Below are positions 7,001-27,885 of a stretch of 54,990 bases of DNA, piece after piece. Location: the IMG/VR virus record IMGVR_UViG_3300048813_000106, positions 1-54,990 of that record; one strand, 5' to 3'. Every line of letters begins with the position of its first letter. Position 1 is the stretch's first letter. A model generated the notes under the pieces. It saw only the letters and a program-made list of their open reading frames with translations, had not been told where the DNA came from and searched no databases. The translations under genes and the position numbers were made by a program. This DNA comes from a virus.

Positions 7001-10000
7001 CGGTCTTCTCCGCTTCCTTCTTGAACGCGGGCTCACCCGAGGAGAACAGGTCACCGATGCCCTTGATGAGATAGGGGGCCGCGAACCCAAACGCCGCACC
7101 GATCGCGGTCCCCACGACAGGGGCAATCGTCGTGCCGATCAGGGCACCCGCCGCAGGCCCGAGGACGAAGCCCACGCCCGCACCCGCACCGCCTGCTTGC
7201 AGGCCGCTCGCGAGTGTGCCTTTCGCGCCAGTTGCGCTTGCTAGGAGGCTGCCACCGATGAGGCCACCAGCACCGTAGATTCCTGCTTTCAGCAGGTTGC
7301 TCTTGCTGAGAAGAGCAGCGAGGCCACCTCCCTCGGCGGTCAAGCCGCCAGCGGCGAGCATATCGGAGCCCTCCTGCGCCGCCATAGCCCTCTCGTATGC
7401 GCTGGCACCCGCTATGCCTGTCGTTCCCGCGAGTCCGCCCTGTGCCGCTGCATCCAGGCCACCTGCCGCCGCGTTCTTGTCCTCCTCCGCAGTCAGCAGC
7501 CCCGTCTCGACACCCGCTGCCTTCAGGAGCGGGACGAGTACTTTGAGCTTCGCCGTGATCAACGTCAAGCCGATCAACCAGGTCCCGAGCGCACCAGCTT
7601 TCTCGATCGCCGTCACGACTTTCGTGAACGCTTCCGCGATATCGGTGACAGCGTGCACCAGCGGCGGGGAGATCGTTGTGTAGATGTGCGAGAAGCTGGC
7701 GATCAGCGGCACCAGCGCGTCGAGCAGCGCGATGGCCTCTTCCTTGTGGACCGTGAAGATGTTTTTGATCGCGGCGCTACCGGCAGTCGAGTTCTCGTAT
7801 TCGTGAACTTTGTCCAGCATGTGCGTGAGCGCTTCGATGATCCCCTCGCCTGTGTGCGCATCCTTATCGAACAAGTCGAACAGGTCAGCCGCGAGGATCT
7901 TCACGAACGCGCCCCACACATGAAAGTCGGCGATGAGGCGGTTCATCTCGCCCTCCCACACCGAGAACTCGCTCGGGGTGTTCCACTTCGTGAAGAACTT
8001 GTCGAGGTCTCTGAGGAACCCTCCTGTCAACGGAGCGGTGTAGGCGACGGTCTTCGCGAAGAACTCAAAGCCCTGCGTGAGCGCTGCCATCGCGGTCGGG
8101 ATCTCGTTCTTGAACTCGCTCTCAAGCTGAAGGAAGATCCCCATACCTTCGGGACCCTTCAACCAAGCCAGGAGCGGCTTGATCGTGCTGTTGATGACCG
8201 AGAAGTTTTCCGTAGCAGCCCGCGCCACCAGCGGGATATACGCCTTGTCGAGTTCCAGGAGCTGCATCCCGATCTTCGACGCCTGCACCCGCGCCTGAGA
8301 GGTCTGCTTGTCCCAGTATTCGTTAAGGGACATCGCGGCCTTTGCGACCCCAGCCTCAGCCTTCACCCCAGCCGTGTTCCCCAATTCCGAGAACACATTG
8401 TTCAGTTCCTTCGTCGCTTCCTTCGCCTGTTCAGAGTCCTTGCCATACACCCGTACGGCCTTGTTGACCGCTTCATACGCCGTGTAGAGCTGCTTGGTGT
8501 CCGCGATCGTGGAGGACGCCACGACAGCATCGGAGCCCATGCCGACCCCGAGCTTCCCGGCCGCGCCAGCACCGAGCAGCGCACCACCCCCCAAAGCAGC
8601 GACACCCGAGCCGACGATCCCGCCTGCCGTGAGGATGATGTGCTCCGGCCCGAACCCAGCGAACGACCCGAGGGAGCCGATACCCGCACCGATGCCTGCC
8701 GCACCGACAGCGGCACGCCCCAGGATGCCGCCACCGACATAGCCGCCCCCGCCGCCACCTCCCCCTCCGTGGCCCCACAAGAGCGCCGTAAGCCACGGAG
8801 GGACCCCGCCCCCACCTCCACTACCCCCAGCGGCTCCCGTGGCAGCAGCGGCCTTCTCAGGCTCGTATAGCGCCGCCTGCGCTGCTGCCATGTCCGGGCC
8901 GAGAGCACTCAGGCCCGACCGAGGCCCCAACCCAGGGATACCGACCGCTCCAGCACCGTAAGGATGGCCCAGGAACGCCGCGAGCGCATCCGCCTCCGCT
9001 TTCGCATCTTCGGCCTTCTGCGCGGCCAGCAACGCCGCCTCAGTCGTCAGCCCATAGTTCCCTGTGCCGGGTTCTCCGCCGGGAGCGTAAAGACGCCCAG
9101 GACCACCAGCCACCCGAGAGGCGACCGTGTATCCGAGCGCTTCGTAGGCCGCACGGTAGGCGGAGCCGCCTTTGGCTACCTGCCCCGGCGCCAGATTCGC
9201 GGGGAGGGCTTTAGCCGCCTCCACAGCCAAAGCATCAGCGACAGCAGAGCCTGTCGCGTCCGCGACTTTCTGGTCCTCCTCAGTGATCCCAGCGATAGTC
9301 GTCGCCTTGCCCGCAGACGGCCGCTGAGCAGCCTCCAGGGCCGTAAGAGCCCGCGCCAACGAGCCTTCCATCACCTGCTGACGCTGAGCGTCCAAGCCGA
9401 TCAGCGCAGGGACAGCGCCCTTCTGGCGTTGCTGCTCCGCAAGCGGGGTCTCCCCCACAACCGTCCGGGTGTTGTTCCGTTCCGTACTGACCGACAGGGA
9501 CTCCGGGCCACCGCTCTGAGCATCCTCGCCGATAGCAGCAGCGAGAGACCCCAGCGGCGTACGGTCCGCAGCCGCGATAACGACCGTGCCCGGGTTCGTC
9601 GCGGAGAACGGGTGAGGCGTAGGACCCCGCACACCCCAAATCGCGGTATCAGAGGAGGTAGCTGCTACGTCACGGAGCGCCCCGTGACCCCCGATACCAC
9701 CCAGGATCGACCTAGCCAACGCCGAGCGGCCCGCAGCAGCCTCCTCCGCATCAGCAGCGGCTTTCGCAGCAGCGGCCTGGACTGCGTATGCCGCGACTAC
9801 CCGTCCCGACGCGGCGACCTGAATGTCCGCAGCGTCATCCGCCGTGACCGCCATCCCCACATACGCCGCGTCCGTCTCCTCGATGGAGCGACGGACACTC
9901 GCTAGGGCCGTATCCTGAGCCGCGCTCCACCACCCGATAGCGCCCGCGTGACTGTCGAGCCCTGCACCGAGGAGGCCACCCTCAACTCCTACGTGCAGGG

Positions 10001-10133
10001 TGTCGAGCACGCGCTGCATCTCGGCAGTCTTCGCCGTAACGCGCGCTAGGGCATCGTCAAGGTCCGCCCGCAACTGGACCAAGCTAGCCTCAAGGCCTAG
10101 GGTTGCGGAGCCGAGTGAGATCCCATCGGTCAT
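4020..10133 (-). CDS. Tape measure protein with lytic transglycosylase-like domain, 2037 aa
   Basis: The longest gene in the window, in the right place below the frameshifted chaperone pair. ATG at 10133 is preceded by GGGAGG. The N-terminal 400 residues are Ala-rich helical. A Gly-rich hinge with a run of nine Gly lies near residue 460. Hydrophobic Gly/Ala stretches follow near residues 490-540 and 980-1050. A soluble lysozyme/SLT-like domain spans about residues 1460-1570, with catalytic Glu candidate E1478 in VVARESGG, then AFGLGQLE and IKATYRNPTAAWA. Residues about 1690-1860 are predicted coiled coil. It sets tail length and probably locally degrades peptidoglycan during DNA entry. At roughly 0.15 nm per residue the tail would be near 300 nm long. 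Confidence 0.93.
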   Translation of the reverse strand: MTDGISLGSATLGLEASLVQLRADLDDALARVTAKTAEMQRVLDTLHVGVEGGLLGAGLDSHAGAIGWWSAAQDTALASVRRSIEETDAAYVGMAVTADDAADIQVAASGRVVAAYAVQAAAAKAAADAEEAAAGRSALARSILGGIGGHGALRDVAATSSDTAIWGVRGPTPHPFSATNPGTVVIAAADRTPLGSLAAAIGEDAQSGGPESLSVSTERNNTRTVVGETPLAEQQRQKGAVPALIGLDAQRQQVMEGSLARALTALEAAQRPSAGKATTIAGITEEDQKVADATGSAVADALAVEAAKALPANLAPGQVAKGGSAYRAAYEALGYTVASRVAGGPGRLYAPGGEPGTGNYGLTTEAALLAAQKAEDAKAEADALAAFLGHPYGAGAVGIPGLGPRSGLSALGPDMAAAQAALYEPEKAAAATGAAGGSGGGGGVPPWLTALLWGHGGGGGGGGGYVGGGILGRAAVGAAGIGAGIGSLGSFAGFGPEHIILTAGGIVGSGVAALGGGALLGAGAAGKLGVGMGSDAVVASSTIADTKQLYTAYEAVNKAVRVYGKDSEQAKEATKELNNVFSELGNTAGVKAEAGVAKAAMSLNEYWDKQTSQARVQASKIGMQLLELDKAYIPLVARAATENFSVINSTIKPLLAWLKGPEGMGIFLQLESEFKNEIPTAMAALTQGFEFFAKTVAYTAPLTGGFLRDLDKFFTKWNTPSEFSVWEGEMNRLIADFHVWGAFVKILAADLFDLFDKDAHTGEGIIEALTHMLDKVHEYENSTAGSAAIKNIFTVHKEEAIALLDALVPLIASFSHIYTTISPPLVHAVTDIAEAFTKVVTAIEKAGALGTWLIGLTLITAKLKVLVPLLKAAGVETGLLTAEEDKNAAAGGLDAAAQGGLAGTTGIAGASAYERAMAAQEGSDMLAAGGLTAEGGGLAALLSKSNLLKAGIYGAGGLIGGSLLASATGAKGTLASGLQAGGAGAGVGFVLGPAAGALIGTTIAPVVGTAIGAAFGFAAPYLIKGIGDLFSSGEPAFKKEAEKTASAVNALSKGLLGSKPHEAAITHALEAAHEAGQSTVRGIVTGRGSESLVGVRANLAGQARDYRKAGEEAGREYVEAFQHVRFPSRLGFLTSVEHELAKLPQQAQGEAAKTMLAYAAKLESEGRLPKGAVAGFITALEQKFSGLTAYLEAHGSATSAALAKAYDLEHAKATVTTGLTEIEQAFGVSFKHTETGTENALKFLQTIFANNKGPMGEKARELISGLVPAFETEWKAASELNAREIASINKELNSEIKQLGGSEIRAGFGGQTKPGAPVEGKGTNLRNEPTPFGKAQGGLLQIGQPGDAGHDTVGLNVGGLPIAVGAGEQVAVFNRHQQPIVNAALEHMGYGGLPGLFGAVTTPNYMASGGLIPDVVQAGLSDVRKAGKAKIAGLHSAGMGGGSLGGASFSGDWVQVMRGIAKEEGWSLADWEKVVARESGGVVSIKNPSSTAFGLGQLESMNWAAYGGGPGSSGVEQIIAMAKYIKATYRNPTAAWASETSRGFYGLGGLLGFASGGLLSFAGGTHNVFDTAGKVKSKKAKPLPHPVDAWKVHPFQKIKPLATTWWGQGFYDQLNGLLGETGAVADLTEQYELSSNAAELALQAAPHGGEFIYTPSESGGGYYSAYTGPTANLANTSSSSSGGNPEILWGNVELRQHQLEGLIGTENSLLGDLNTAWGLSSTVLQAAEEGSKERAKAILELKAKIQANLNKIKRLHEHRHALEVKLAKVPKGKKATAADHAEAKKLGSEINSTAQQIKSLEAENVQLGGNATSIGDAGKIGTLDTQVSELHAATETVKGDQHTLGGLTEHGGSMLTAQLTLQKLGAELTAIGGPALELKLAEAKGGGTGESPLELKERELVQAQEQLKIKTANEKVLEQSFSVFSGPGDIGRGGLNAYAAAGARGMLIPASWIPSFDVGGVVPGARGAPSLALVHGQEEILTPEQREWGNGPPVHFEQHNHMMHPSDPAVLTEIGKASVRGMRYQGSRLSKRLAPGV

Positions 10134-13576: not shown

Positions 13577-14308
13577 TCAGTCGTGCTTGCTGTAGATGCG
13601 TTCTACGCCACCCTCAAGCGGCACCAGCGACTCGCCGCCGCCGATGCGGGGCTCCCTCAGCCGATCCCCACGCCTTGGCGGAATGATCTCCACGTTGTCC
13701 CTGCCGACTAGTGCGGCTGCCTCGTCAATCATGCAGACGGGCTCTCCAGGGTCCAGGGTGTAGCGGCCGGACGGCATCTGCGCAACCTTCAGCAGTAGTG
13801 CCACAGCCTGCGGCATCGTGATGAAGTAGCGGTAGCAGCTAGTCGCGGGCAGCGGTGGCTGCATCCGGGCCCATATCTCGAACACGTTGCCGGAGGCTTC
13901 CCGCACGTTGTAGAACCGGGCGACACTCTGCCCCGCGTTCAACATCAGGCGCTCTGCAATGAGCTTTGTGGCCCCGTACACCGTCTCGGGGTTGCACGCC
14001 TTACAGGTAGACGTCAGGACGACACGGCAGCCCGCAGGAGCCGCCTGGAGGACGTTACGCGTCCCCTCCACGTTGATGCGGGTCGCGTCCCAGGGCTCTA
14101 CCTCGCCTTCCGGGGCGTGCTTAGCGCCAGCACAGTGGAAGATCACATCGGGCTCCGCCAGTTGCAGCGCAGACTTGAGCGCCAGCTCGTCAAGGATGTC
14201 CAGGCCCGTCAGAATGTCCAGACCGTGCACCGTGTCGCCACGGGCCCCCAGGACGGGTGCGAGGGCTTTCCCTACGCTGCCCTCCGAACCCGTGATGAGC
14301 GCGATCAT
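13577..14308 (-). CDS. NAD(P)-dependent nucleotide-sugar epimerase/dehydratase, 243 aa
   Basis: ATG at 14308 overlaps the upstream stop (ATGA), and the N-terminus MIALITGSEGSVGKALAP is an extended-SDR Rossmann start with G-x-x-G-x-x-G. The YxxxK pair is present in VYGATKLIAER, with TST before it as the Ser/Thr of the triad. The length is short for the family (usually above 300), with a reduced substrate domain. It should modify the sugar part of an NDP-sugar (epimerisation or 4,6-dehydration). It supplies substrate for the glycosyltransferases next to it. Confidence 0.85.
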   Translation of the reverse strand: MIALITGSEGSVGKALAPVLGARGDTVHGLDILTGLDILDELALKSALQLAEPDVIFHCAGAKHAPEGEVEPWDATRINVEGTRNVLQAAPAGCRVVLTSTCKACNPETVYGATKLIAERLMLNAGQSVARFYNVREASGNVFEIWARMQPPLPATSCYRYFITMPQAVALLLKVAQMPSGRYTLDPGEPVCMIDEAAALVGRDNVEIIPPRRGDRLREPRIGGGESLVPLEGGVERIYSKHD

Positions 14309-14502
14309 GTGGCCTGCTTGCGGAAGAGCGGCTTGACTTCGCCTAGTAGTTCCCCGTCGCGCACAACGAAGCGACGAAGCTTGCGCTGCTTGGGCACGGG
14401 GACCAGCGTGCCTTGTAGCCATCCCGCGTTCACGCAATACTCGCAGTAGCTGTGGAAACCGGTGGACAGCTTCCCGCACTCGGGGTTGTCGCAGCGCCAC
14501 AT
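14305..14502 (-). CDS. Small zinc-ribbon protein, 65 aa
   Basis: ATG at 14502 forms TGATG with the upstream stop. Two Cys pairs, CDNPEC (residues 4-9) and CEYC (20-23), fit a rubredoxin/zinc-ribbon knuckle. The rest is basic (VPKQRKLRRFVVRDG). It is embedded between a glycosyltransferase-like gene and the epimerase. Function unknown. Confidence 0.6.
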   Translation of the reverse strand: MWRCDNPECGKLSTGFHSYCEYCVNAGWLQGTLVPVPKQRKLRRFVVRDGELLGEVKPLFRKQAT

Positions 14503-15116
14503 CACACGGCCACCGCGAACACCCCATCGCCTGGCCACCCCGGAGCAAGGTCCCTCACCTTCGGGTTACCGAGGCCGATCCACCGCTCGCTAGCCCACCT
14601 GTCCTCCGTAGAAACAGGCGGCAGGGTGCGCAGGTAGTCGCAGCGAGCGACCCAATAGTTACCGCCGAAGAACGGGACGGCGCCCATCGTCGCCTCCCCG
14701 AACACGTCCGGGTGCAGCCAGTGGCACCCCACAGCGTCATAGCCTTCTTCGAGGACGTTGCGGCAATGCTCCCAACCCTCCACCACATGGTGCGTCATCG
14801 AGCGCCGCCAGCGATCGTTGAACTCCGTGGGCTGCGATGCACCCTTGGTATGGGCGTAACAGATTGCGTCCTCGGGATACGTGAGTGCCCACGCCCGCAC
14901 CAGTTCCATCGTGCCGCGCTCAGAGGTTGGGTCCACCGTCACGACCGTCGCGGTGTCCCCCAGCATGTCCCGAAGCCTCTCTTGGGCAACCGGGCCGCCA
15001 GCAGCTCCGACGATGACCTCCCCATGAAAGTCGCTCAGCGCCCTTCGGTACTCGGTGACCATCCCCGGCCACACGTCGTTGTCTAGATAGGCGTGGTAGA
15101 AAGCGACGACGCTCAC
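14502..15116 (-). CDS. Putative glycosyltransferase-like protein (YAHTK family), 204 aa
   Basis: GTG at 15116 overlaps the upstream stop (GTGA). It shares with the next upstream gene the blocks YAHTKG/A-S, W-R-x-S-M, HVV...W, G-x-H-W, GN-Y/F-W-x-A and YLRTLPP, so the two are paralogues. The layout (N-terminal Rossmann-like half, HTKG, then FGGNYWVA and a WIG end) resembles sugar transferase-like proteins seen in viruses and capsule clusters. This assignment is from memory of the motif and not proven. The cassette context supports glycan transfer. Confidence 0.6.
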   Translation of the reverse strand: MSVVAFYHAYLDNDVWPGMVTEYRRALSDFHGEVIVGAAGGPVAQERLRDMLGDTATVVTVDPTSERGTMELVRAWALTYPEDAICYAHTKGASQPTEFNDRWRRSMTHHVVEGWEHCRNVLEEGYDAVGCHWLHPDVFGEATMGAVPFFGGNYWVARCDYLRTLPPVSTEDRWASERWIGLGNPKVRDLAPGWPGDGVFAVAV

Positions 15117-15691
15117 CGGAACATGCCCATCGGGTTGCCCCTACGCATGTTGAAAGTGCTCGGCTCGTTCTGCCCAACCCAAAACTCAGCGTCCATTCGA
15201 TCTCCTGTCGCGCATGGCGGGAGTGTACGCAGGTACGCGGCTGACGCCATCCAGAAATTCCCGCTGAAGTGTGGTGGGGTGCCGTCGTCAATCCAGTGAG
15301 CGCCAGCCAGGTCGGCCCCCGCTTCGATCCCACGCAAGGCGTCTGCCCATCGTGTGACGACGTGGGCGATCATCGACTGGCGCCAAGCGACCTTCCACGG
15401 GCTCGGGTCCGAGCTTGCCTTGGTGTGGGCGTAGAGGATCGGCTGGTCATGCGTCTGCGCGTATTCGTACAGCGCGGCCAGCGTGACCTGCTCCCAGCCC
15501 GAATCAGCTTCTGCGGCTACCTCTACCTCCCCGAGAGCGTTCAAGGCCCTTAGGCGACTTTCCCGTGGCCCTACAAGACCAACATGGATGGTGCCGGGGA
15601 AGTCGCTGGCGTGCAGGGCGGCTAGGACCTCCGTGACGGGCTCCTGCCATGCGCCGGGTGTCCAGATATGCAGAAAGCACGTGGGGTTCAT
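15113..15691 (-). CDS. Putative glycosyltransferase-like protein, paralogue of the 14502-15116 gene, 192 aa
   Basis: ATG at 15691 is in ATGA with the upstream stop. Conserved with its neighbour: ILYAHTKASSDP, WRQSM, HFSGNFWMASAAYLRTLPP and AEFWVGQ. The HTK/GNFW pair is probably part of the active site. The tandem arrangement suggests duplication followed by divergence, perhaps to add two different sugars. The N-terminal part (CFLHIWTPGAWQEPVTEVL) differs from the sister protein. Confidence 0.6.
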   Translation of the reverse strand: MNPTCFLHIWTPGAWQEPVTEVLAALHASDFPGTIHVGLVGPRESRLRALNALGEVEVAAEADSGWEQVTLAALYEYAQTHDQPILYAHTKASSDPSPWKVAWRQSMIAHVVTRWADALRGIEAGADLAGAHWIDDGTPPHFSGNFWMASAAYLRTLPPCATGDRMDAEFWVGQNEPSTFNMRRGNPMGMFR

Positions 15692-16755
15692 GCGGCCTTG
15701 CGGGTCGCAGCATGCCTGTTGGCTACTGCCTGCGACCACGCCTCTGTCCAGTCGGGACCTCGCGTCTCGTAAAGGTGCCGGGATCGCACGACCTCTCGAC
15801 CCTGCTCGGCCATCTCGTAGCGCAAACTCTCGTCGGCGATGAGCTGCCTGACGGCTGAACGCCAGTTGCGGGAGCGGTCAGCCGCGAGGATGCCTAGCCC
15901 AAGCGCCGAATACTCAACACGTGGAGAAGCGACGAAGGGGACGCCCCGAGCAGCCATCTCCAACCCCTTTAGCCAGGACTTCGCAGCGTTGAAGGCAGTA
16001 TTCCCGAGAGGCACGATACCTACGGTCAGACGGCCGAGCGCGAGATGGTAGTCCTCGACGCTCTCGATCCACGGCGTCTCATCGGGCTCACCCGGAAGGC
16101 CAAGGGCCTCACGTACGCCTGCTGCCTCTCCGATGACCTCAAAGCGCCAGTCATCGAGAGCTTCCCCCACTCCGCCGCGAGTGACCTCCAAGTCTCCGGG
16201 GTGTGTTGCGACGCGCCCTGCCCACCCGATGGTGTGCCCGTCTGAGAGGCTCGGGTAGTCAAGGATCGCGGCAGGAACCGCGTTCGGCAGGACAGCGACG
16301 CGGCCGTGTGCGCCGTAACGCTCAGCCAACGCAGGCGTACTAACCGTCACAAGATCAGCAAGGGCACAGCACCGGGCCGTGAACTTAGCGTGCACATCGG
16401 GATGCACCAGCCCTGCGTGCAGAGGGTAGGCGGCGTTCTGTGGGTGCACTGCGCGCAGGTCGTCGTCCACGTCCACGACGACCGCTACCCCCATGCGCTG
16501 GTACTGCTCGATGAAGCTGATCGTGTCGCGGTGCGGGGGACGCTGAAACACCACCACGTCCGCATCGACCGGGGCGACCATACGCTCTACGATCCGCTCG
16601 CGCAGGACCGCTGTGCCTCGGTGTTCCCGGATGCCTCTGCCGATCATCTCGACCGACATTCGTATCTCGCCGTCCACACCAGATGTCCGTAGCGGCTGCT
16701 CGCAACGAACATAGGCGCAGCCACCTTCGTCGGCGGGGTACAGGATGACTCGCAC
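15688..16755 (-). CDS. GT-B (family 4-like) glycosyltransferase, 355 aa
   Basis: Start chosen at GTG 16755, which overlaps the upstream TAG (TAGTG) and gives the usual MRVILYPADEGG N-terminus. A frame extension to 16770 is possible. The N-lobe contains DADVVVFQRPP and VVVDVDDDL. The C-lobe has IGWAGR and the donor-binding KGLEMAARGVPFVAS block, the E-rich motif of retaining GT-B enzymes. First enzyme of the glycan cassette, directly below the head-tail connector gene. Probably transfers a sugar in the cytoplasm. Confidence 0.85.
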   Translation of the reverse strand: MRVILYPADEGGCAYVRCEQPLRTSGVDGEIRMSVEMIGRGIREHRGTAVLRERIVERMVAPVDADVVVFQRPPHRDTISFIEQYQRMGVAVVVDVDDDLRAVHPQNAAYPLHAGLVHPDVHAKFTARCCALADLVTVSTPALAERYGAHGRVAVLPNAVPAAILDYPSLSDGHTIGWAGRVATHPGDLEVTRGGVGEALDDWRFEVIGEAAGVREALGLPGEPDETPWIESVEDYHLALGRLTVGIVPLGNTAFNAAKSWLKGLEMAARGVPFVASPRVEYSALGLGILAADRSRNWRSAVRQLIADESLRYEMAEQGREVVRSRHLYETRGPDWTEAWSQAVANRHAATRKAA

Positions 16756-17222
16756 TACCAGCCGCCCCATCCCCAGCCGCCCCAGCCGCCCCCACGACGC
16801 CCCTGAAACTGCCTGAGACGGAACATTGACCCTTCGCGGTTCGGGTTCTGCGCCTGAGCGACCTTTTCCGACCGGCTGATCCCACCCGCATACGGAGCAT
16901 GGAGTTCCTGGGCACGCAGCCGTAGCTCAGCGGCGCGTTCCGCGTACTGCTCCGCACGCTTAGTCGAGCCGATCTTCAACGTCCCCGACTGGCGGTCCGC
17001 CAACGCCGCGAACCTCCGGGCGAGCGCTTCCATGCAGTGCGCTGCCGCTTCGAGCACTTCATACTGGTTGGAGTTCTCAGGACTGTTGACCCCTTCGACG
17101 GTGAGGGCGTAGCTGATCTCAGCGTCGGAGAGCAACTGGGCGGCCGGGTTCGTGTCCTGAATCTCGAACCGCACCGCGTCCTTCGTGCTCGTCATCGGAT
17201 CTTCGCTATACGTCCACGCCAT
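16755..17222 (-). CDS. Head-tail connector (adaptor-like) protein with Gly/Trp tail, 155 aa
   Basis: ATG at 17222 follows AGGGAGG (8 bases). The N-terminus TYSEDPMTSTKDAVRFEIQD and LLSDAEISYAL is the pattern of gp6-type head-tail adaptors in actinophages, followed by helices (CMEALARRFAALADRQ, AEQYAERAAELRLRAQEL). The last 15 residues (GRRGGGWGGWGWGGW) are an odd Gly/Trp run that the adaptor family does not need. Sits at the head-tail joint in relatives. Confidence 0.7.
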   Translation of the reverse strand: MAWTYSEDPMTSTKDAVRFEIQDTNPAAQLLSDAEISYALTVEGVNSPENSNQYEVLEAAAHCMEALARRFAALADRQSGTLKIGSTKRAEQYAERAAELRLRAQELHAPYAGGISRSEKVAQAQNPNREGSMFRLRQFQGRRGGGWGGWGWGGW

Positions 17223-19667: not shown

Positions 19668-20669
19668 CTACGCCACAACCTTGGAGAAGAACATCCCGAG
19701 GTCCGACGCCGTGATTTTCATGTCATACGCCGCCCGGATCGCATACCAGTCCGTCCATGACCTGTCCAGGCGCCCGGAGTAGATCACGCCAGCCGTAGCG
19801 TTAGACACACCCGGTACGAGGTTCGTCCACGCGAACGTGTACCCCGCCGACGGTGTATCGATCGACGGCCCAGACGGCGCGAACGCCAGCAGCGCCGCCT
19901 TCGGGTTCGCGATGAATTTGAGGTTCGCCGGAGCACCCTCAAGCGCTTCGTTGTAGATCCCGCGAGCGACAATGATCTTGTCGACCTCGAACGCGGCAGC
20001 CATCGCCTGGCGGCCCACCAGGGCCGGTTCGTTCTGCGAGATGTACTTGATGCGGTTCAACAGTTCTTCGTTGTTGCGCAGCCCCGTGTACGCCTTCGCG
20101 CCAAGCACGAGGATGTTCGGGCGACGCCCCGTCGTTTCCTGCATTTCGTCCGCACGGCTCCCGAAGAACAACACGGGTTCCGTTTTTGCCTTGTTGAACT
20201 GTTCGTAGGTCTTCCCGGATTCCGACGCGGTACCGGAGGTACCTTCCCACGTCGTTTTCCACAACGACGGTTCAAAATACTGCGAGCACCATTCCGCATC
20301 CATGCCGATCAGGGCACGTTCCTCCAGGAATTCAGTCGCCCGGAGATCCGGGTGCACCGGGTCATCCGCGTTCTTTTTGATCCTGTCATCCAGGCGATAC
20401 TGCAACGCCCGCTCCGTGCACGAGAATTTCTTCGTTTCCGTGCCGTACTGATCGTACGCAGGCTCCTCGTTCATACCCCTTCGCGGGAAGTCGTTACGCA
20501 TCCACGCATCCCGCAGGAACACGAGGTAGTCATCAGACGCCGTATCCGTAGGGATCTGCGGAAAGGCCTGCAGCGCAATGAACTCGTCCTTCTCCTGCCG
20601 GTAGCGGATAGCGAAGTTTGTCGCCCACCGGTTTATATGGACGCTTGAGAGACCAATCTCAGCTGGCAT
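19668..20669 (-). CDS. Major capsid protein, 333 aa
   Basis: ATG at 20669 is preceded by AAAGGA. Typical blocks: FIALQAFPQIPTDTASDDYL, then the E-loop region with GMNEEPAYDQYGTETKKFSC, then LDDRIKKNADDPVHPDLRATEF, and an axial part with RRPNILVLGAKAYTGLRNN. These fit a HK97-fold coat protein of the long-known actinophage and proteobacterial phage group. The gene follows protease, scaffold and decoration genes. Hundreds of copies form the shell. Confidence 0.9.
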   Translation of the reverse strand: MPAEIGLSSVHINRWATNFAIRYRQEKDEFIALQAFPQIPTDTASDDYLVFLRDAWMRNDFPRRGMNEEPAYDQYGTETKKFSCTERALQYRLDDRIKKNADDPVHPDLRATEFLEERALIGMDAEWCSQYFEPSLWKTTWEGTSGTASESGKTYEQFNKAKTEPVLFFGSRADEMQETTGRRPNILVLGAKAYTGLRNNEELLNRIKYISQNEPALVGRQAMAAAFEVDKIIVARGIYNEALEGAPANLKFIANPKAALLAFAPSGPSIDTPSAGYTFAWTNLVPGVSNATAGVIYSGRLDRSWTDWYAIRAAYDMKITASDLGMFFSKVVA

Positions 20670-20709: not shown

Positions 20710-21078
20710 CTAGGCCGTTGTCACAGGTGGGCAGACAAGCGCTTCAACGATGTCGCCTGCCACGCCCGCTTCAAGGGCCACGCCAACGACTAGGCCATTC
20801 GATGCTTTGATGGCCTTCCCTTCACTGTTCACTTCAAGCTGGTTCCCGACAGCGATAGCACCGCCGATGATCACCTTCTGACGCTCCGCACCGAACACCA
20901 GCGTCGAGTACCCGCCGATTTCCGCGCCTTCGGTGATCGCATAACCCGCTTCACCCGCACCGGCCAATTCGCATTCGCCGGTGGACGTGAGCTTCGCGAA
21001 ATAGAATTCTTTTTCCAGCAGGTTCGTAGCCGACTTCACCGCTTTCAGCGCATGCGGGTCTACGTTTGACTTGGCCAT
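20710..21078 (-). CDS. Head decoration/cement protein (DUF2190-like), 122 aa
   Basis: ATG at 21078 follows AAGGAGC. The sequence ends with VVGVALEAGVAGDIVEALVC and includes the IGGAIAVGNQLEVNSEGKAI strand pair, the pattern of DUF2190 capsid cement proteins. Lies directly upstream of the coat gene, as is common. It should bind the outside of the expanded capsid. Confidence 0.8.
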   Translation of the reverse strand: MAKSNVDPHALKAVKSATNLLEKEFYFAKLTSTGECELAGAGEAGYAITEGAEIGGYSTLVFGAERQKVIIGGAIAVGNQLEVNSEGKAIKASNGLVVGVALEAGVAGDIVEALVCPPVTTA

Positions 21079-21122: not shown

Positions 21123-21989
21123 TTAGACCCCGGCACGCTCCTTCTCGTACTGGGCCGCCACGGCAGGGTCACGCATCGCGCGACGAAAAGCCTCAGCGCT
21201 CGACATGTTCGGGTCAGACTTCTGCAGCTCCTCAGCCTTCTGCATGGCTTCCGGCAGGCCGGGGCCAGACGGGGACGTGACACGCTGGCCACTACGCCCA
21301 TACTCCGCCTCAATCGAGCCCTTACGGAGCTGCTCGTTGATCGCGGACTGTTCGCGGAAATACCCGTCGTAGTCCGCCTTCTCCAGCGTCTCGGAGAACT
21401 TCTTCAGGCGCTTACCGACGACCTCCGGGTCCCCCATGTGCGGAAGCTCGCTCTTGGCGAGGTCAACGAACTCGGCCTCGACACGCGTTTCACGCTCACT
21501 CTTAGCGATCTCCTCCGCCGACTCCGCACGCTCCTTGTTGACCTCGGCTTCCTTGCGAAGCTCAGCCACCTCGGCGTCACGCTTCAGGAGATACGCCTTC
21601 ACACCCTCCGGAAGGTCAGCCTTGGAGAGGTCGTCCGGGTCGTCCTCGTCGTCGTCCATCTTCGGGGCCGGTTTCGCTTTGCCGCCACCAGCCTGCTTCT
21701 CCAGCTCGGCCTTCGCGTCCTCAGCGGCCTGCGCCTTCGCGAGGGCCTCGTCCCGGTCCTTCTCAGCGGCCTTGGTGGCCTCTTCGGCCTTGACTAGCGC
21801 CGCCTGCGTTTCCTCGGGGGTCATAGCTGACCCTCCTTTCTCGCCCGGCAGCGCCGGATCGTTGGGTGCATCCTCGGACTTCCACAACAGCATCCGTCGA
21901 GGTTGCGTTGGGCTATTTGGGTCCCTTGTTGCCGCGCGCTCGACCAGGCTTACGCGTCGCACGCGGGCATCCGTCACTTGATTAGGCAT
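21123..21989 (-). CDS. Scaffolding protein, with two well-marked starts (288 or 233 aa)
   Basis: The full frame starts at ATG 21989 with GGAGG 5 bases upstream. Its first 40 residues (RVRRVSLVERAATRDP then RMLLWKSE) resemble the VSLV-D/E-R-A segment of XkdF-type protease proteins rather than a scaffold. A second in-frame ATG at 21824 has a near-perfect AAAGGAGGG. From there the protein is Glu/Lys/Ala coiled coil (residues about 56-100 and 150-210), with an acidic patch MDDDEDDPDD and a helical C-terminus. This is the usual make-up of a scaffold that is removed during head maturation. Confidence 0.8.
   Translation of the reverse strand: MPNQVTDARVRRVSLVERAATRDPNSPTQPRRMLLWKSEDAPNDPALPGEKGGSAMTPEETQAALVKAEEATKAAEKDRDEALAKAQAAEDAKAELEKQAGGGKAKPAPKMDDDEDDPDDLSKADLPEGVKAYLLKRDAEVAELRKEAEVNKERAESAEEIAKSERETRVEAEFVDLAKSELPHMGDPEVVGKRLKKFSETLEKADYDGYFREQSAINEQLRKGSIEAEYGRSGQRVTSPSGPGLPEAMQKAEELQKSDPNMSSAEAFRRAMRDPAVAAQYEKERAGV
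21831..21839 (-). promoter_or_regulatory. Strong internal ribosome binding site within the scaffold gene
   Basis: On the minus strand AAAGGAGGG ends 6 bases before the in-frame ATG at 21824-21822. It is as good as any ribosome site in the window, so a shorter scaffold is probably produced, perhaps as the main product. Confidence 0.6.
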
Positions 21990-22649
21990 CTAGACCTCCA
22001 CTGGGTGACGGAAACCAAGCCCTTCGAGGCTCAATCCCGTCAGCTTGCCTTCATCGACTTCCTGCTTTACCAGCGGGTCATCGATCTGCCATGCCTGCAC
22101 CCATGAGGACTTCGTGACTGGCTCACCGCCCAACACCATGTCCATCGGCGCTATGTAATTCTCGATCAGGTCCGCCCCGGCGTCCCGGCCACTGTGCTGC
22201 ACGTCCGGGGAGTGCTCTGCCTTCGAGAGCGAGTAGTCCCGCATGAAGCCATGGCATGCCTTCTCGATCTCTGCCGGGGCGAAGATGTCGCCTTGGCTAT
22301 CTTCGAGCCCCGGCTCTAGGACGACACCATAAAACTTGCCCTCGACATCGCTCTTACGCAGCGGGCAGGTATAGGCGACCTCCGCCTTCTCCATCTCGCC
22401 GATGTCCGGGTAACGGCTGTGAACGGCCGCTTTGACCTTGGCCTGTTCGTCCGCGTTCCCGTGCTGAGCGACACGAGCAAGGGCGTTCCGGGCGTGGGAG
22501 GCATCGTGGATGGGGTAGCGACGCCCAGGCAGCGCGAAGTCGGAATCCTTCAGGTCATTCCGCGCGTCAGCGTCAAGCGCCGCCTTCTCCAGCTCGTCGG
22601 CCTCACCGGCCCTCGCGAGCACATCCAGCGATTTGGTCAGCCAGGACAT
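21990..22649 (-). CDS. XkdF-type prohead protease, 219 aa
   Basis: The C-terminal domain (about residues 95-219) has KFYGVVLEPGLEDSQGD, AEIEKACHGFMRDY, LGGEPVTKSSWVQAWQ and LTGLSLEGLGFRH, the XkdF/Peptidase_S78_2-like pattern of putative serine proteases in head maturation. The N-terminal part (FALPGRRYPIHDASHARNAL then AAVHSRYPDIG) is the DUF6582-like segment often fused to it. The stop is next to the scaffold start. It should cleave the scaffold and perhaps other head proteins. Confidence 0.8.
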   Translation of the reverse strand: MSWLTKSLDVLARAGEADELEKAALDADARNDLKDSDFALPGRRYPIHDASHARNALARVAQHGNADEQAKVKAAVHSRYPDIGEMEKAEVAYTCPLRKSDVEGKFYGVVLEPGLEDSQGDIFAPAEIEKACHGFMRDYSLSKAEHSPDVQHSGRDAGADLIENYIAPMDMVLGGEPVTKSSWVQAWQIDDPLVKQEVDEGKLTGLSLEGLGFRHPVEV

Positions 22650-22659
22650 AGGGCCTCCT

Positions 22660-25350
22660 TCAGGCTTCGGGGGTCACGACAGGGTTGTAAGACAGGCCAG
22701 AACCCACATGCGGGGCAGACGGCGCGTCAGCAAGCAGGAACGTCTCTCCGTCGCGGTCCCCGCCATGCGTCTGCAAGCCCACGACCCGCGGACTGGACCC
22801 GTAAGCAACGAGAGACGCAGCCCGCTGCATCGCGGCCGTCTCATTCGCTGCGATCAGCTCCGAGCGGTAGCCAACACCAGCTTTCACGAACCTGCCTGCC
22901 GGTACCGCCTTGCGTATCCGTTGCGCTGTACGGCCTGGGTCCTCTCCGGCCTGCACACCCGCCTCTACGGCCTTCAAGATGGCCTGGCGGACCTGGGGTT
23001 CGATATCACGACAGGAGAGCTTCCTAGAGCCCTTTATGCGCCGGATATCGGCATCCGCGATAGCGAGGTCAAGGCCGGTCTCCGTCTTGAGCAGAAGCTC
23101 CGTGTCACGCGCCACCCTGCCCGCATGAGCGGCAAGAGCCGGAGTCAGGCGCTGCTGAACCCACGCGGCGATCCCGAGAGACCGGACTACCTTCGCGGTG
23201 ACGCTGCGCATCTCGCGTTTCCCGGTCGGCAACTCACCCTTACGCACCGTCGTCAGATATGCGCTCGCAGCACGCGACCCAAGCTCCTGCAGCAACCCCG
23301 TCATCTGACCGTCCAGGGCACCGGAGAGGACCCTCGCACGCGTCGCTAGTGCAGGGCCTACGTCGATCACCTGCCCGTCAGCCTTCGCTAGCCGCGCCTG
23401 CCCAAAAGGGACACGGAGCACTTCCTCCCCGCGGTGCACTGAGAGATGGGTGAACTTGATGGGGGTCTCCGGCAACGGGTCCGGGAGCGGGTCGCCCTCG
23501 TCCTGGTAAGTGAGCGTCACATGCGGGCGGAAGCCGCTGTGTTCGCTGGCGTTCAACGGCTCGAACGCGGCCCTGAGCTTGTCGAGACCCGCGATCTTCG
23601 GCACCGCGTACACCGGCACCTTGCCATCGCTCGCCTCCGAAGGCTCAAACGTCCCCTGACCGCCAACGGTGCCTTTCGGGGGCTTCGTGGTAGCCGCGAC
23701 ACTGCGTGCCGTCTCAACGGCCTGTGCGAACGTCTCGTCGTCCACGTCGCTGCCGAGGAGCACGACCGTCAGATGGTGGTCCTGCACCCCGTCGTCCATC
23801 GCTGGCAGCGTGCCTGGCACGAGGTCCAGCGACACCATCCCAGTGCCCTTGCCTACCTGCGCGGCGTCCTTCTGCAGCTTCGACGGTTCCAGTTTCCCGG
23901 CAGCAGGCTTCGCTGGTTCGACAGGCTTCGCGGGCGCCACGGGGAACGTGAAATCCGACCCCAGGCCAGCAGACTCGAACAGTTGCTTCTTGAACTTCGG
24001 GTCATCCGGCAACGTGAGGCCAGCAGCAGCCATGTTCGACAAGAACAGGCCGACCTTTTCGAGGTCTATGCGGCCCGCCGTGGTAGCAACGATTTTCGGG
24101 GGGTCGTTCGTCTTGACCCCATTCAACCTCAACAGGCGCGGGATGGCGTACCGGTTCATCGGCTTGAGGATCTGGTCAATCATGGCGTCCACAGCCATCC
24201 CAAAAAGCTCCGACTTCACATCGACCATCGCATACGAGCCAAGGCCGTCCTGCCCCAGGAGCATGAAGTCAGCGGCCACGCTTGCGGCGATCCTCTGCTC
24301 GTACCGGCGGATCACCTTGTCCAGGTCAAACTGGCGGGACCCCGCCGCCGACATCAATTCGAACTCCCACTCCGCTGTCGGGAAAACGAGCCCCTCGTCC
24401 TCATCCCTATGGACAGTGGTAACGAGTTCCGTTACACGGTTATACAGCTCCGTGTTCTCCTGCGCGAACAAGTCCACACCCGGAGGCGGCTTCGCTATCG
24501 GGATACCCGCAAGGTCTCTCGCTGCGCCCACGGCCTCGATGTCCTGTAGGCCACGCAGCCGGAAGAATGACGGCCAGCTACGACGCAAAATCGAATAGCC
24601 TTCTGGATTGTTCCTGACACGCCGGTTGCGGATCAGCACCAGCTTTGTGATCGGAATGTTGTGGTGGCCGCCGTGCCAGTCGAGCTGCTCAAGGCCACGC
24701 AGGCTGCTGTACCCGTCGAAATGCCAGTGCAGCGTGGTTTCCTGGGCACGCAGCGGCAGCTTCCGCCACCCGACAAGACCGTCCGTGTACGCGCTACTGC
24801 CGGGGTGCTGGGGTTCTTCGGTGGTAGGCGTCTCGTCGTCTGAACCCATTTCGTCCTGGCCCGGCTGTTCACCCCGGCGGTACTTGAACACTTCCTCCAT
24901 CGCCGCATACCCATAAGGCAGATGGGTCAAGGCTTCGCAGATGAAGTCGTCCCAGCCATGCGACATGTCGTGCATCGATTGCTCAATGTGATTGCGCCAG
25001 CGGGGTTCGCCACCCTCAACCGAGTAGTCCACGCGCTGCGCGAGCATTTCGATCATGAACAAGAAGCCGCCCGCGATGGGGTCGTTATCTAGAAATTCGC
25101 GGTAACGCCACGCGGCCTCGCGGCCTTGGAGTTCCCCAAGCCACTCATCCAACACCCAGCCTGACCACTGTCTGAGACCCGATGTCCCGATCTCCACGAA
25201 CGGCGAGACCTTGCGCGGACCCTGGGACTGACGGTCCCCTACGGCCATCGGGCGAACGATGGCCGTAGCACCACCAGTAGATGAAGACGTGGAGCTACGC
25301 GACCCGATAGCGCGTGCACCTTGGGAGCCGCCGCGAGACTTATTCGCCAT
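22660..25350 (-). CDS. Portal protein fused to a 2H phosphoesterase domain and a MuF-like C-terminal region, 896 aa
   Basis: ATG at 25350 is preceded by GAGGAGG. Residues about 60-480 are a portal of the DUF935/Mu gp29 type (WRYREFLDNDPIAGGFLFM, HLPYGYAAMEEVFKYR, ITKLVLIRNRRVRNNPEGY). A Pro/Ala/Lys linker (485-515) follows. Residues about 520-665 carry two H-x-T motifs, HLT (H526) and HVT (H610), 84 residues apart and each in a hydrophobic strand (HLTVVLLG, HVTLTY). That is the signature of 2H phosphoesterases (LigT/2'-5' RNA ligase superfamily). Residues about 670-896 are helical and resemble a divergent MuF-type region (SELIAANETAAMQRA). The portal lies at the unique capsid vertex, so the 2H enzyme would be packaged in the virion. 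Two of the three parts are firm; the MuF part is weaker. Confidence 0.88.
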   Translation of the reverse strand: MANKSRGGSQGARAIGSRSSTSSSTGGATAIVRPMAVGDRQSQGPRKVSPFVEIGTSGLRQWSGWVLDEWLGELQGREAAWRYREFLDNDPIAGGFLFMIEMLAQRVDYSVEGGEPRWRNHIEQSMHDMSHGWDDFICEALTHLPYGYAAMEEVFKYRRGEQPGQDEMGSDDETPTTEEPQHPGSSAYTDGLVGWRKLPLRAQETTLHWHFDGYSSLRGLEQLDWHGGHHNIPITKLVLIRNRRVRNNPEGYSILRRSWPSFFRLRGLQDIEAVGAARDLAGIPIAKPPPGVDLFAQENTELYNRVTELVTTVHRDEDEGLVFPTAEWEFELMSAAGSRQFDLDKVIRRYEQRIAASVAADFMLLGQDGLGSYAMVDVKSELFGMAVDAMIDQILKPMNRYAIPRLLRLNGVKTNDPPKIVATTAGRIDLEKVGLFLSNMAAAGLTLPDDPKFKKQLFESAGLGSDFTFPVAPAKPVEPAKPAAGKLEPSKLQKDAAQVGKGTGMVSLDLVPGTLPAMDDGVQDHHLTVVLLGSDVDDETFAQAVETARSVAATTKPPKGTVGGQGTFEPSEASDGKVPVYAVPKIAGLDKLRAAFEPLNASEHSGFRPHVTLTYQDEGDPLPDPLPETPIKFTHLSVHRGEEVLRVPFGQARLAKADGQVIDVGPALATRARVLSGALDGQMTGLLQELGSRAASAYLTTVRKGELPTGKREMRSVTAKVVRSLGIAAWVQQRLTPALAAHAGRVARDTELLLKTETGLDLAIADADIRRIKGSRKLSCRDIEPQVRQAILKAVEAGVQAGEDPGRTAQRIRKAVPAGRFVKAGVGYRSELIAANETAAMQRAASLVAYGSSPRVVGLQTHGGDRDGETFLLADAPSAPHVGSGLSYNPVVTPEA

Positions 25351-25377: not shown

Positions 25378-26976
25378 TTAGACGGAGCGGCCGAAGCCAG
25401 CGCCGCCACCGGCACGCTGATGCAGCGCACCCCACCGTGACCCGCCGGGACGCCTGAGAACCTGGGGAGCAGCGACAGTCGGGGCGATACGGCTCAGAAA
25501 ATATGATTGCACTACGGAATCGCCACTATCCGTAGAGCGCTTGAGTCTCTTGCGAATCTCTTTCTTAGCTTCCACCTTGATCTTGCCGCCAGTGACTTCC
25601 TCCCAGCGCGGCGCCAAGAGGTCTGCGGTGAGCTGTTCATCGGGTGGGATCGCAAGCTCGAACCCTGACCCGGGCTCTAGCATTTCGCGGAGGTTCCACC
25701 ATGCAGCGTCTCGAACGGACGTGAACCCGAGCTGCCCGCCACGGGTACGCAAATCGGTTTTGTTGGATGCGACGAAGTCAACGACGGACCTGCCGCGTTT
25801 GCGAAGCTCGTTCGCGATCACTTCACCCTGACCAATAGCGTCTATCACGACGCGTGCGCCGCGTTCGGGTGCTGCCGCGAGGCCCTGTAGCTCATCGGTG
25901 GTGACGGCCGTGTCGGGCTCGTGGGGGCGCACCAGCACAGCGGAGATCACGGGGCCGTGGCGTAGCGCGTAGACGGTGCGGTCCTCCCCGCGTCCCGCGA
26001 TGTCAGCCCCGATGATTTCCAGCGGGCCGAGAGAATCATGGACAGGGACGATCAGGCTGTTCGTTGGGGCGAGCTGCAGCATCCGCCAACGCTCGTTCGC
26101 TTCTTCCAGATGATCCATGCGGATCACGGCGTCTACCTGCTGGCGGGCGAACTCCCCGAGCACATGGTTCGCGTACCACGCGGAGTCTTCACCGAACTGT
26201 GCGGCGCGCTGTTTGCGCCACACCTGCGTCATACGTTTCGCCTTCAGCACCCGGTCAAGCTCAACATGGATGGGGTGCCAGTCCTCATACCCCGCTGCGC
26301 CTTCGTGAATGTCGTAGAACCGGCCCTCCGGTGCCCCCGGTGTCGAGGACGCGAGCGCATACGCAGCCTGGTCGGATTCTGGTCCTGCCCCGGCGAACGC
26401 ACCCTCAAGGCTGTTCCACGTATCTTCCGGGATCAACTTGGCCTCATCGAGGAGGACGAAAAGCTCATCAGCGTGAGCACCCTCAATCTTCCCACTATCT
26501 GTCGGTGCGGCCATCGTGATCGCCCCGAACTTCAGGCGCAGCCCGAGGAGCGTCATCTCCTCCGCAGGCTTGAACGGCTCCCGGCCGATCCTCTCCCAGT
26601 TCAAGCGGGGTGCGAGCTTGGACCGAAGCTCAGGCCACAGGTAATGCTGAAGCTGACTCCACGCGCCTGCGGTGACGACACACTTCCAGTCCTCCCCGCA
26701 GGCATCACGCGTTAGCGAGAACCACAGCAGAGAGAGGACCGCCGTGAAGGTCTTTCCGAGGGTTCGCGGGCCTCGCACGGCGACACGCTGATGGTCTACG
26801 AGCGCCTGGAGGATTTCCTCCTGGTACTCCGTCAGCCCACCGGCCTGCCCTGTCTTGCGGCCCGTGGGCCACGTGAGGCAGTCACGGGCGAAGCCAACAG
26901 GGTCGTTGTGATACTGCGCGACGCCCGTGACTGGCGGGTCGAACAGGTCGGCGAGGCGCGAAGCGGATGAAGCCAT
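25378..26976 (-). CDS. terL: Terminase large subunit, 532 aa
   Basis: ATG at 26976 has AGGAGG. The N-terminal ATPase shows Walker A GPRTLGKT (residues 69-76) and Walker B LFVLLDE (residues 172-178), with the adenine-binding YQEEIL motif before. The C-terminal RNase H-like nuclease contains IIGADIAGRGEDRT, VVIDAIGQGEVI and SGDSVVQSY, whose Asp residues would bind metal. It pumps DNA into the prohead and cuts concatemers. It lies directly upstream of the portal gene. Confidence 0.94.
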   Translation of the reverse strand: MASSASRLADLFDPPVTGVAQYHNDPVGFARDCLTWPTGRKTGQAGGLTEYQEEILQALVDHQRVAVRGPRTLGKTFTAVLSLLWFSLTRDACGEDWKCVVTAGAWSQLQHYLWPELRSKLAPRLNWERIGREPFKPAEEMTLLGLRLKFGAITMAAPTDSGKIEGAHADELFVLLDEAKLIPEDTWNSLEGAFAGAGPESDQAAYALASSTPGAPEGRFYDIHEGAAGYEDWHPIHVELDRVLKAKRMTQVWRKQRAAQFGEDSAWYANHVLGEFARQQVDAVIRMDHLEEANERWRMLQLAPTNSLIVPVHDSLGPLEIIGADIAGRGEDRTVYALRHGPVISAVLVRPHEPDTAVTTDELQGLAAAPERGARVVIDAIGQGEVIANELRKRGRSVVDFVASNKTDLRTRGGQLGFTSVRDAAWWNLREMLEPGSGFELAIPPDEQLTADLLAPRWEEVTGGKIKVEAKKEIRKRLKRSTDSGDSVVQSYFLSRIAPTVAAPQVLRRPGGSRWGALHQRAGGGAGFGRSV

Positions 26977-26994: not shown

Positions 26995-27885
26995 CTACGC
27001 GAGCGGCTTGCCTCTCCCCGGCACGATGGGACACCCAGCGATGAGAGGCACACGATCCGGGCGACTCCCGCCGGGCTTGAACTGGAGCCTGGTTAGCGCT
27101 TCGCCATCCAGGAACGCATTCCAGGTTCGCACGAGGAACACGGCCCGAATATTGGTCCCTATAGGCGAATGACCTTCCAGCTCGCGTTTCATGCGCTCAC
27201 GCAAGGCGTGGATGGCCACTTCGCCTGGGGCATCCCCGAATCGGCCCGTCAGGAGTTTGTCGTGGAAGGCGTCCACCTCCTCAGGCTCGGTGCCCATGCT
27301 CGCTAGGTAGAGAAAGGCGTTGTAGAGACCTCCCGCTATCCCCGACGGCGTGCGTGTGGTGTAGTCCTCGCCGAGTGTGGGGTGATCGACTTGTAGGCGT
27401 TCCAGCTCGGGGACAGTCGGAGATGGGAGGCCCCGCCCATCGAGGCGCCCCCATCCGGTGTAAAACCAAAGAGAGCGTATGGAGGCCGCCACGCCGTTCG
27501 CGTTCGGCACCCTATCGATGCGAAGCTGCTGGCCAAAGCTACGGGACTTGCCGGTATCACGCACGCCCTGCGAGGCACGAGGTAGACCGCCCACCAGCAG
27601 CATCCATTGAGCCGTGCCGGACTCTAGGATAGCTTCGCATCGATGCTGCGCGTCGAACATATTCTCCTGTTCGTCGGTGAGTATCGATGAGCCTGGAGCC
27701 CAGTCTCCGCTTTGCATATCGCGAGCGAGGCGGGCGACATGTTTCGGGTCTATGGCGCGATTACGGCCTTGCGTCCGAAGTAGGTCCTTCGCCTCATCGG
27801 GACCCACAAGGACCCATTCCGCCCAGATACGCGTGCCTGGGATGTAGATACGGGAGCGATCTGACGCAGTCGCTACGGTGGACAT
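26995..27885 (-). CDS. ParB/sulfiredoxin-like N-terminal domain protein, 296 aa
   Basis: ATG at 27885 follows AGGAGG. Residues about 30-125 hold NRAIDPKHVARLARDMQSG, then DEQENMFDAQHRCEAILESG and VRDTGKSRSFGQQL, the pattern of phage ParB-like nuclease-fold proteins (usually RPL...H-V..LA..M..G...DGQHR). The second half is helical and ends with NAFLDGEALTRLQFKPGG. It sits directly upstream of terL. A role in DNA binding or processing is likely, but it is not a typical small terminase. Confidence 0.7.
   Translation of the reverse strand: MSTVATASDRSRIYIPGTRIWAEWVLVGPDEAKDLLRTQGRNRAIDPKHVARLARDMQSGDWAPGSSILTDEQENMFDAQHRCEAILESGTAQWMLLVGGLPRASQGVRDTGKSRSFGQQLRIDRVPNANGVAASIRSLWFYTGWGRLDGRGLPSPTVPELERLQVDHPTLGEDYTTRTPSGIAGGLYNAFLYLASMGTEPEEVDAFHDKLLTGRFGDAPGEVAIHALRERMKRELEGHSPIGTNIRAVFLVRTWNAFLDGEALTRLQFKPGGSRPDRVPLIAGCPIVPGRGKPLA

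Follow-up and report, generated by a model that had tools for sequence, protein, structure and literature searches.

A predicted 2H phosphoesterase domain between the portal and MuF parts of a fusion protein from a metagenomic phage

Described 2H and MuF fusions and the phage locus

Predictions of 2H domains fused to MuF or to portals date from 2017, when Iyer et al. suggested that the fused 2H domains may act as RNases or degrade the nucleotides of counter-invader systems (PMC5512222, 2H section, Fig. 5B). In 2022, Iyer et al. described the MuF- or portal-fused 2H domains as probably packaged and injected, and aimed at SMODS, cyclic-mononucleotide and CRISPR signalling (PMC9503650, section 3.4.5). 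Experimental studies of 2H-portal or 2H-MuF fusions were not found in the literature searched. In SPP1, the portal directs the MuF protein gp7 to the inside of the procapsid, and fusions to MuF have been suggested to serve for effector delivery (PMC6316719). Portal-MuF fusions and MuF-VIP2 fusions are known from Microbacterium phages (PMC7302621). Among the 2H enzymes, Acb1 of phages T4 and FBB1 is a phage-encoded member of the superfamily with an HxT/HxT active site; it is a small protein with the base-stacking residues Y12, W74, F107 and W147 and a C-terminal lid (PMC9117128). E. coli LigT and drCPDase, which are 2'-5' RNA ligase-like, are free-standing cellular enzymes.

The DNA analysed here, referred to as the window, was the 54,990-base IMG/VR virus record IMGVR_UViG_3300048813_000106, which had a G+C content of 64% and belonged to a phage known from metagenomes only. 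A gene on the minus strand (22660..25350) encoded a portal-2H-MuF fusion of 896 aa. The first-pass annotation knew of no description of a portal that incorporates a virion-borne 2H enzyme. As far as sequence description is concerned, this claim of novelty fails because Iyer et al. had already described 2H-MuF and 2H-portal fusions in 2017 and 2022 (PMC5512222, PMC9503650). The window protein is a well-supported new example of a described fusion type and not a new kind of system. It shares with the fusions of Iyer et al. a 2H domain on the portal and/or MuF of tailed phages and the proposed role against nucleotide-signalled immunity or as an RNase; the portal-2H-MuF order and a 2H-less relative are documented here, in a comparison made by description and not protein by protein. 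The Microbacterium fusions likewise hold portal and MuF in one gene and have enzymes joined to MuF, whereas the window enzyme lies N-terminal of MuF, after the portal, and the consulted portion of that study mentions no 2H domain (PMC7302621).

The fusion gene lay within a head module on the minus strand. It was preceded by the gene for the terminase large subunit (25378..26976; PHROG 2, E 5e-28) and followed by that for an XkdF-type head maturation protease (21990..22649; Peptidase_S78_2, Pfam PF14550, E 4e-22). Next in the module came a gene of no known family (21123-21989), a protein that may serve as cement or scaffold (20710-21078) and the major head protein (19668..20669; PHROG 1005, E 4e-63). 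Upstream of the terminase, the gene at 26995-27885 (minus strand) matched PHROG 5931, of unknown function, with an E value of 4e-43. Elsewhere on the same strand, a 2037-residue protein of tape-measure size (4020-10133) showed a transglycosylase-like match at residues 1446-1511, and nucleotide-sugar epimerase-like and glycosyltransferase-like genes (13577-14548 and 15688-16770), for which glycosylation functions are possible, were located near the structural genes.

Architecture of the fusion gene

The gene opened with an ATG and contained no internal stops. The portal domain, of the Portal_Mu or DUF935 type, occupied residues 51-470 (23941..25200). Pfam Portal_Mu matched residues 108-449 with an E value of 3e-16, and the portal part matched PHROG 113 (portal) with 4e-51 and the solved portal 11bp_A with 6e-44; the Portal_Mu and solved-portal matches placed it among the Mu-type (DUF935) portals. 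A proline/lysine-rich linker (residues 471-493, 23872..23940) came next, followed by the 2H phosphoesterase module of 162 residues (residues 494-655, 23386..23871). The remaining residues 656-896 (22663..23385) formed the MuF-fold part. At the sequence level this part was matched weakly: PHROG 2468 (head morphogenesis) gave an E value of 2e-5 and was matched by all four members compared, and the Phage_Mu_F cut-off was not reached (12.5 bits against 29.6). The MuF identity was decided by structure. An AlphaFold model of this part (pLDDT 84) matched numerous proteins of the minor capsid or head morphogenesis type, with E values down to 1.6e-7, and the matches included proteins named for ADP-ribosyltransferase and zeta toxin. 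Both a MuF-type fold and a place beside the portal were thus found. The reading frame, Pfam, PHROG and the model all agreed with the original view of one 896-residue gene with a DUF935-type portal, 2H motifs and a MuF-like part. The 2H domain had also been described as inserted in the portal; its position was between portal and MuF, outside the portal fold. An insertion into the portal fold was ruled out, as the segment follows the portal domain and a relative lacks exactly that segment.

The 2H assignment was made by profile, fold and motif. Pfam 2_5_RNA_ligase2 (PF13563) matched residues 526-625 with an E value of 8e-7. When the 2H domain was scanned alone, it scored 33.7 bits against the PF13563 cut-off of 27, and LigT_PEase was also above its cut-off. 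The two catalytic motifs, H526-L-T528 (23767..23775) and H610-V-T612 (23515..23523), were spaced 84 residues apart, and the histidine and threonine of both were invariant in all 21 aligned domains. The first motif was within a predicted strand (domain residues 27-34). The initial placement of both motifs in strands was right as to their positions, their spacing and the first motif; in the second, H610 just precedes the predicted strand (domain residues 112-117) and T612 is inside it.

An AlphaFold model of the 2H domain, built from the alignment of the 21 domains, had a mean pLDDT of 86. In a Foldseek search, the PDB matches ranked 1-27 were all 2H enzymes or 2H-domain proteins, and the best were E. 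coli LigT, drCPDase and the rotavirus VP3 2',5'-phosphodiesterase. The probability was 1.00 for LigT, CPDase and the VP3 phosphodiesterase, with moderate TM-scores of about 0.46-0.64. The fold is common to LigT, drCPDase and the window domain, whereas the sequence identity to these cellular enzymes is about 17%. When PDB sequences were searched with a profile of the 2H alignment, PH0099 was the best match (E 0.003), and the remainder were near chance; PH0099, as a 2'-5' RNA-ligase-like protein, was also in the fold-search list. The two HxT/S motifs and the three-dimensional fold of the 2H superfamily were both found, and the family and fold matches implied that both histidines would face one cleft. 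Profile, structure and comparative evidence strongly supported a 2H fold with both HxT motifs, as suspected at the outset, and the segment of 162 residues is predicted to be a 2H phosphoesterase whose catalytic motifs are intact.

The suggested link to Acb1 was upheld at the superfamily level only. Usb1 and Acb1 were weaker fold matches than LigT and CPDase (Acb1 E 3.8e-3), and the window domain did not reach the Pfam Acb1 cut-off (11.9 bits against 27), so that membership in the Acb1 family was rejected. The relative L021 was also below this cut-off, with 18.5 bits.

Relatives with and without the 2H domain

Intact relatives were present in five other contigs, with 2H regions 100% or about 75% identical to that of the window. 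The same frame was intact in other metagenome records, namely L002-L004, in which the 2H region was 100% identical, L005/L010 (889 aa) and L037 (893 aa). A search with the portal identified a further contig, L036, with a portal 87% identical to that of the window and a protein of 730 residues. The 2H segment was absent from it in frame: the linker was kept, and PSKLQ ran directly into KADGQV, without window residues 494-655. No 2H domain was found elsewhere when the L036 contig was searched. A short AAGG repeat was present at both ends of the segment, which is compatible with its in-frame gain or loss in either direction. A clean gain or loss of the 2H segment between portal and MuF is strongly supported, and the existence of a portal-MuF protein without it makes the 2H domain an optional module between the two parts. 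That separate genes had been joined by an assembly or frame error has a practically negligible probability; no supporting point was found, and the open frames of independent contigs comprise either all three parts or portal and MuF only, so an artefact was ruled out.

The dN/dS of the 2H segment was 0.23-0.28 between the window and L037 and L010, and 0.09 between L010 and L037, from which purifying selection on the 2H domain was concluded. The synonymous divergence between the window and L010 was 0.51 in the 2H segment versus 1.02 and 0.92 in the flanks; the lower value gives a hint, and no more, of a separate exchange of the segment.

Relatives at 39-54% identity occurred in many virion proteins. 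The portal-2H-MuF order was found in L011 and L023, and a portal-2H-ParB-like-MuF order in L015. An HK97-type portal followed by 2H was found in L028, and portal-MuF-ParB-like-2H in L031. The 1751-residue portal protein of L029 (201-5456) had the same arrangement as L031, with a Hint/intein-like element in the apparent MuF part. The ParB-like parts of L015 and L031 and the MuF and ParB-like parts of L029 were read by eye. In L026 (1368-4739), the order was portal-MuF-2H-Nudix, and one portal protein bore two different nucleotide-processing domains. Polyvalent proteins with ADP-ribosyltransferase-like, ParB-like and 2H domains were found in L021, L024, L027, L030 and L032; the ADP-ribosyltransferase type was Arr-ms in L021 and ADPrib_exo_Tox in L032, and the ParB-like parts and the domains of L024, L027 and L030 were read by eye. 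L024 and L030 contained an additional 2H copy whose first motif had decayed to HxA. The 2H domains thus shared a gene or a gene neighbourhood with virion head proteins, a feature of virion-packaged, injected (polyvalent-type) effectors. That the window domain belongs to a subfamily moving between head proteins of virions and arrays of polyvalent effectors is strongly supported, and such variable placement would be expected for cargo. Two scans of bacterial and archaeal genomes gave no confirmed relatives, which is weak evidence for absence since the pattern step was restrictive, and plasmids searched for 2H relatives gave no match.

These relatives bear on the reading of the domain as a structural or regulatory part of the portal crown, with a 2H fold but no catalysis. 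Its location in an assembly protein and the degraded extra copies in L024 and L030 are consistent with such a role. It is considered very unlikely, however, because both HxT motifs are invariant in the 21 domains, the position of the domain varies in other proteins, and L036 has a portal-MuF protein without it.

When isolated phages were searched directly with the window 2H domain, one weak match only was obtained. Matches in Gordonia and Arthrobacter phages were reached via other subfamily members, most with tblastn E values above 0.01, and were then confirmed by profile; these domains were more distant than the metagenome relatives. Gene 18 of Arthrobacter phage Shrooms (L047:3812-4930), annotated as 'aldolase class I', encoded a 2H domain joined to an XkdF-type head protease, with Pfam E values of 4e-11 and 2e-13. 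In the gp16-gp18 region of this Laroyevirus, the portal was 37% identical to that of the window and the 2H domain was likewise in the head module, whereas portal and MuF were in separate genes and 2H was joined to the XkdF protease. The two phages therefore have four modules in common (portal, MuF, 2H and XkdF) in different joins. A 2H domain was also present in the Gordonia phages Dexdert (L044:3669-6506), Zipp (L045:2684-5737) and Mutzi (L046:3896-4450), in genes annotated as 'head maturation protease' or 'RNA ligase'. In Dexdert, a long tail of low complexity, with repeats, came after the 2H domain. Several phage genes labelled 'RNA ligase', 'aldolase class I' or 'head maturation protease' thus contain 2H domains.

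A role in RNA repair, in which the 2H domain would open the 2',3'-cyclic ends of cleaved tRNA for religation, draws on LigT and CPDase as the closest solved folds and on the 'RNA ligase' annotation of related cultivated-phage genes. It seems quite unlikely, since Iyer et al. met with no case of these 2H versions alongside ATP-grasp RNA ligases (PMC5512222) and none of 20 further window proteins scanned, a subset of the ORFs, matched an RNA ligase family.

Proposed function of the 2H domain

The reading preferred here, for which we see about an even chance, is that the window protein carries a virion-borne RNA-end or oligonucleotide phosphoesterase as optional portal cargo, which would be active during infection. 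The portal is the ring by which phage DNA passes into and out of the capsid; as a dodecamer it would hold up to twelve 2H copies inside the capsid, and the neighbouring XkdF-type head maturation protease is a candidate for cutting the cargo free. After cleavage, the 2H domain, perhaps together with the MuF part, would reach the cytoplasm during infection. There it would hydrolyse RNA ends that bear a 2',3'-cyclic phosphate, or signalling oligonucleotides of the cyclic or 2'-5' type, and this activity would blunt RNA-cleaving or nucleotide-signalled host defence. An anti-defence role, in which a virion-borne enzyme may destroy nucleotide signals, is reasonable from the sequence and is already in print (PMC5512222, PMC9503650). 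Against the cargo reading, the portal stays in the capsid, so that ejection would need a putative cleavage. The 2H domain is dispensable, as L036 shows, and an accessory of little effect also fits this observation. A more specific version, in which twelve 2H domains at the inner portal vertex would be freed by the XkdF protease, enter with the DNA and act on alarm signals before phage genes are expressed, is put forward tentatively and is doubtful in this full form. If true, it would provide the first demonstration of an injected anti-signalling enzyme borne by a portal.

Head genes are normally expressed late. The main rival, which we judge rather improbable, is that newly made portal subunits would act late in the cytoplasm, before or without assembly and without being injected, to suppress late abortive responses (CBASS) as Acb1 does. 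Such timing would agree with late head-gene expression and with the activity of Acb1 in T4 infection from about 15 min, which matches the late onset of CBASS (PMC9117128), and no cleavage or ejection step would be needed. However, a free gene would be enough for late action, and the subfamily recurs together with portals, MuF proteins, head proteases and polyvalent proteins, which suggests that a location in the capsid matters.

To the described fusions, this analysis adds a natural 2H-less relative, a variable position of the 2H domain and misannotated cultivated relatives. The natural pair of portal-2H-MuF and portal-MuF proteins, with portals 87% identical, makes the prediction directly testable, as do the relatives that can be cultured, namely Arthrobacter Laroyevirus and Gordonia phages whose head-protease genes include 2H. 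Virion-carried counter-defence enzymes could act ahead of phage gene expression.
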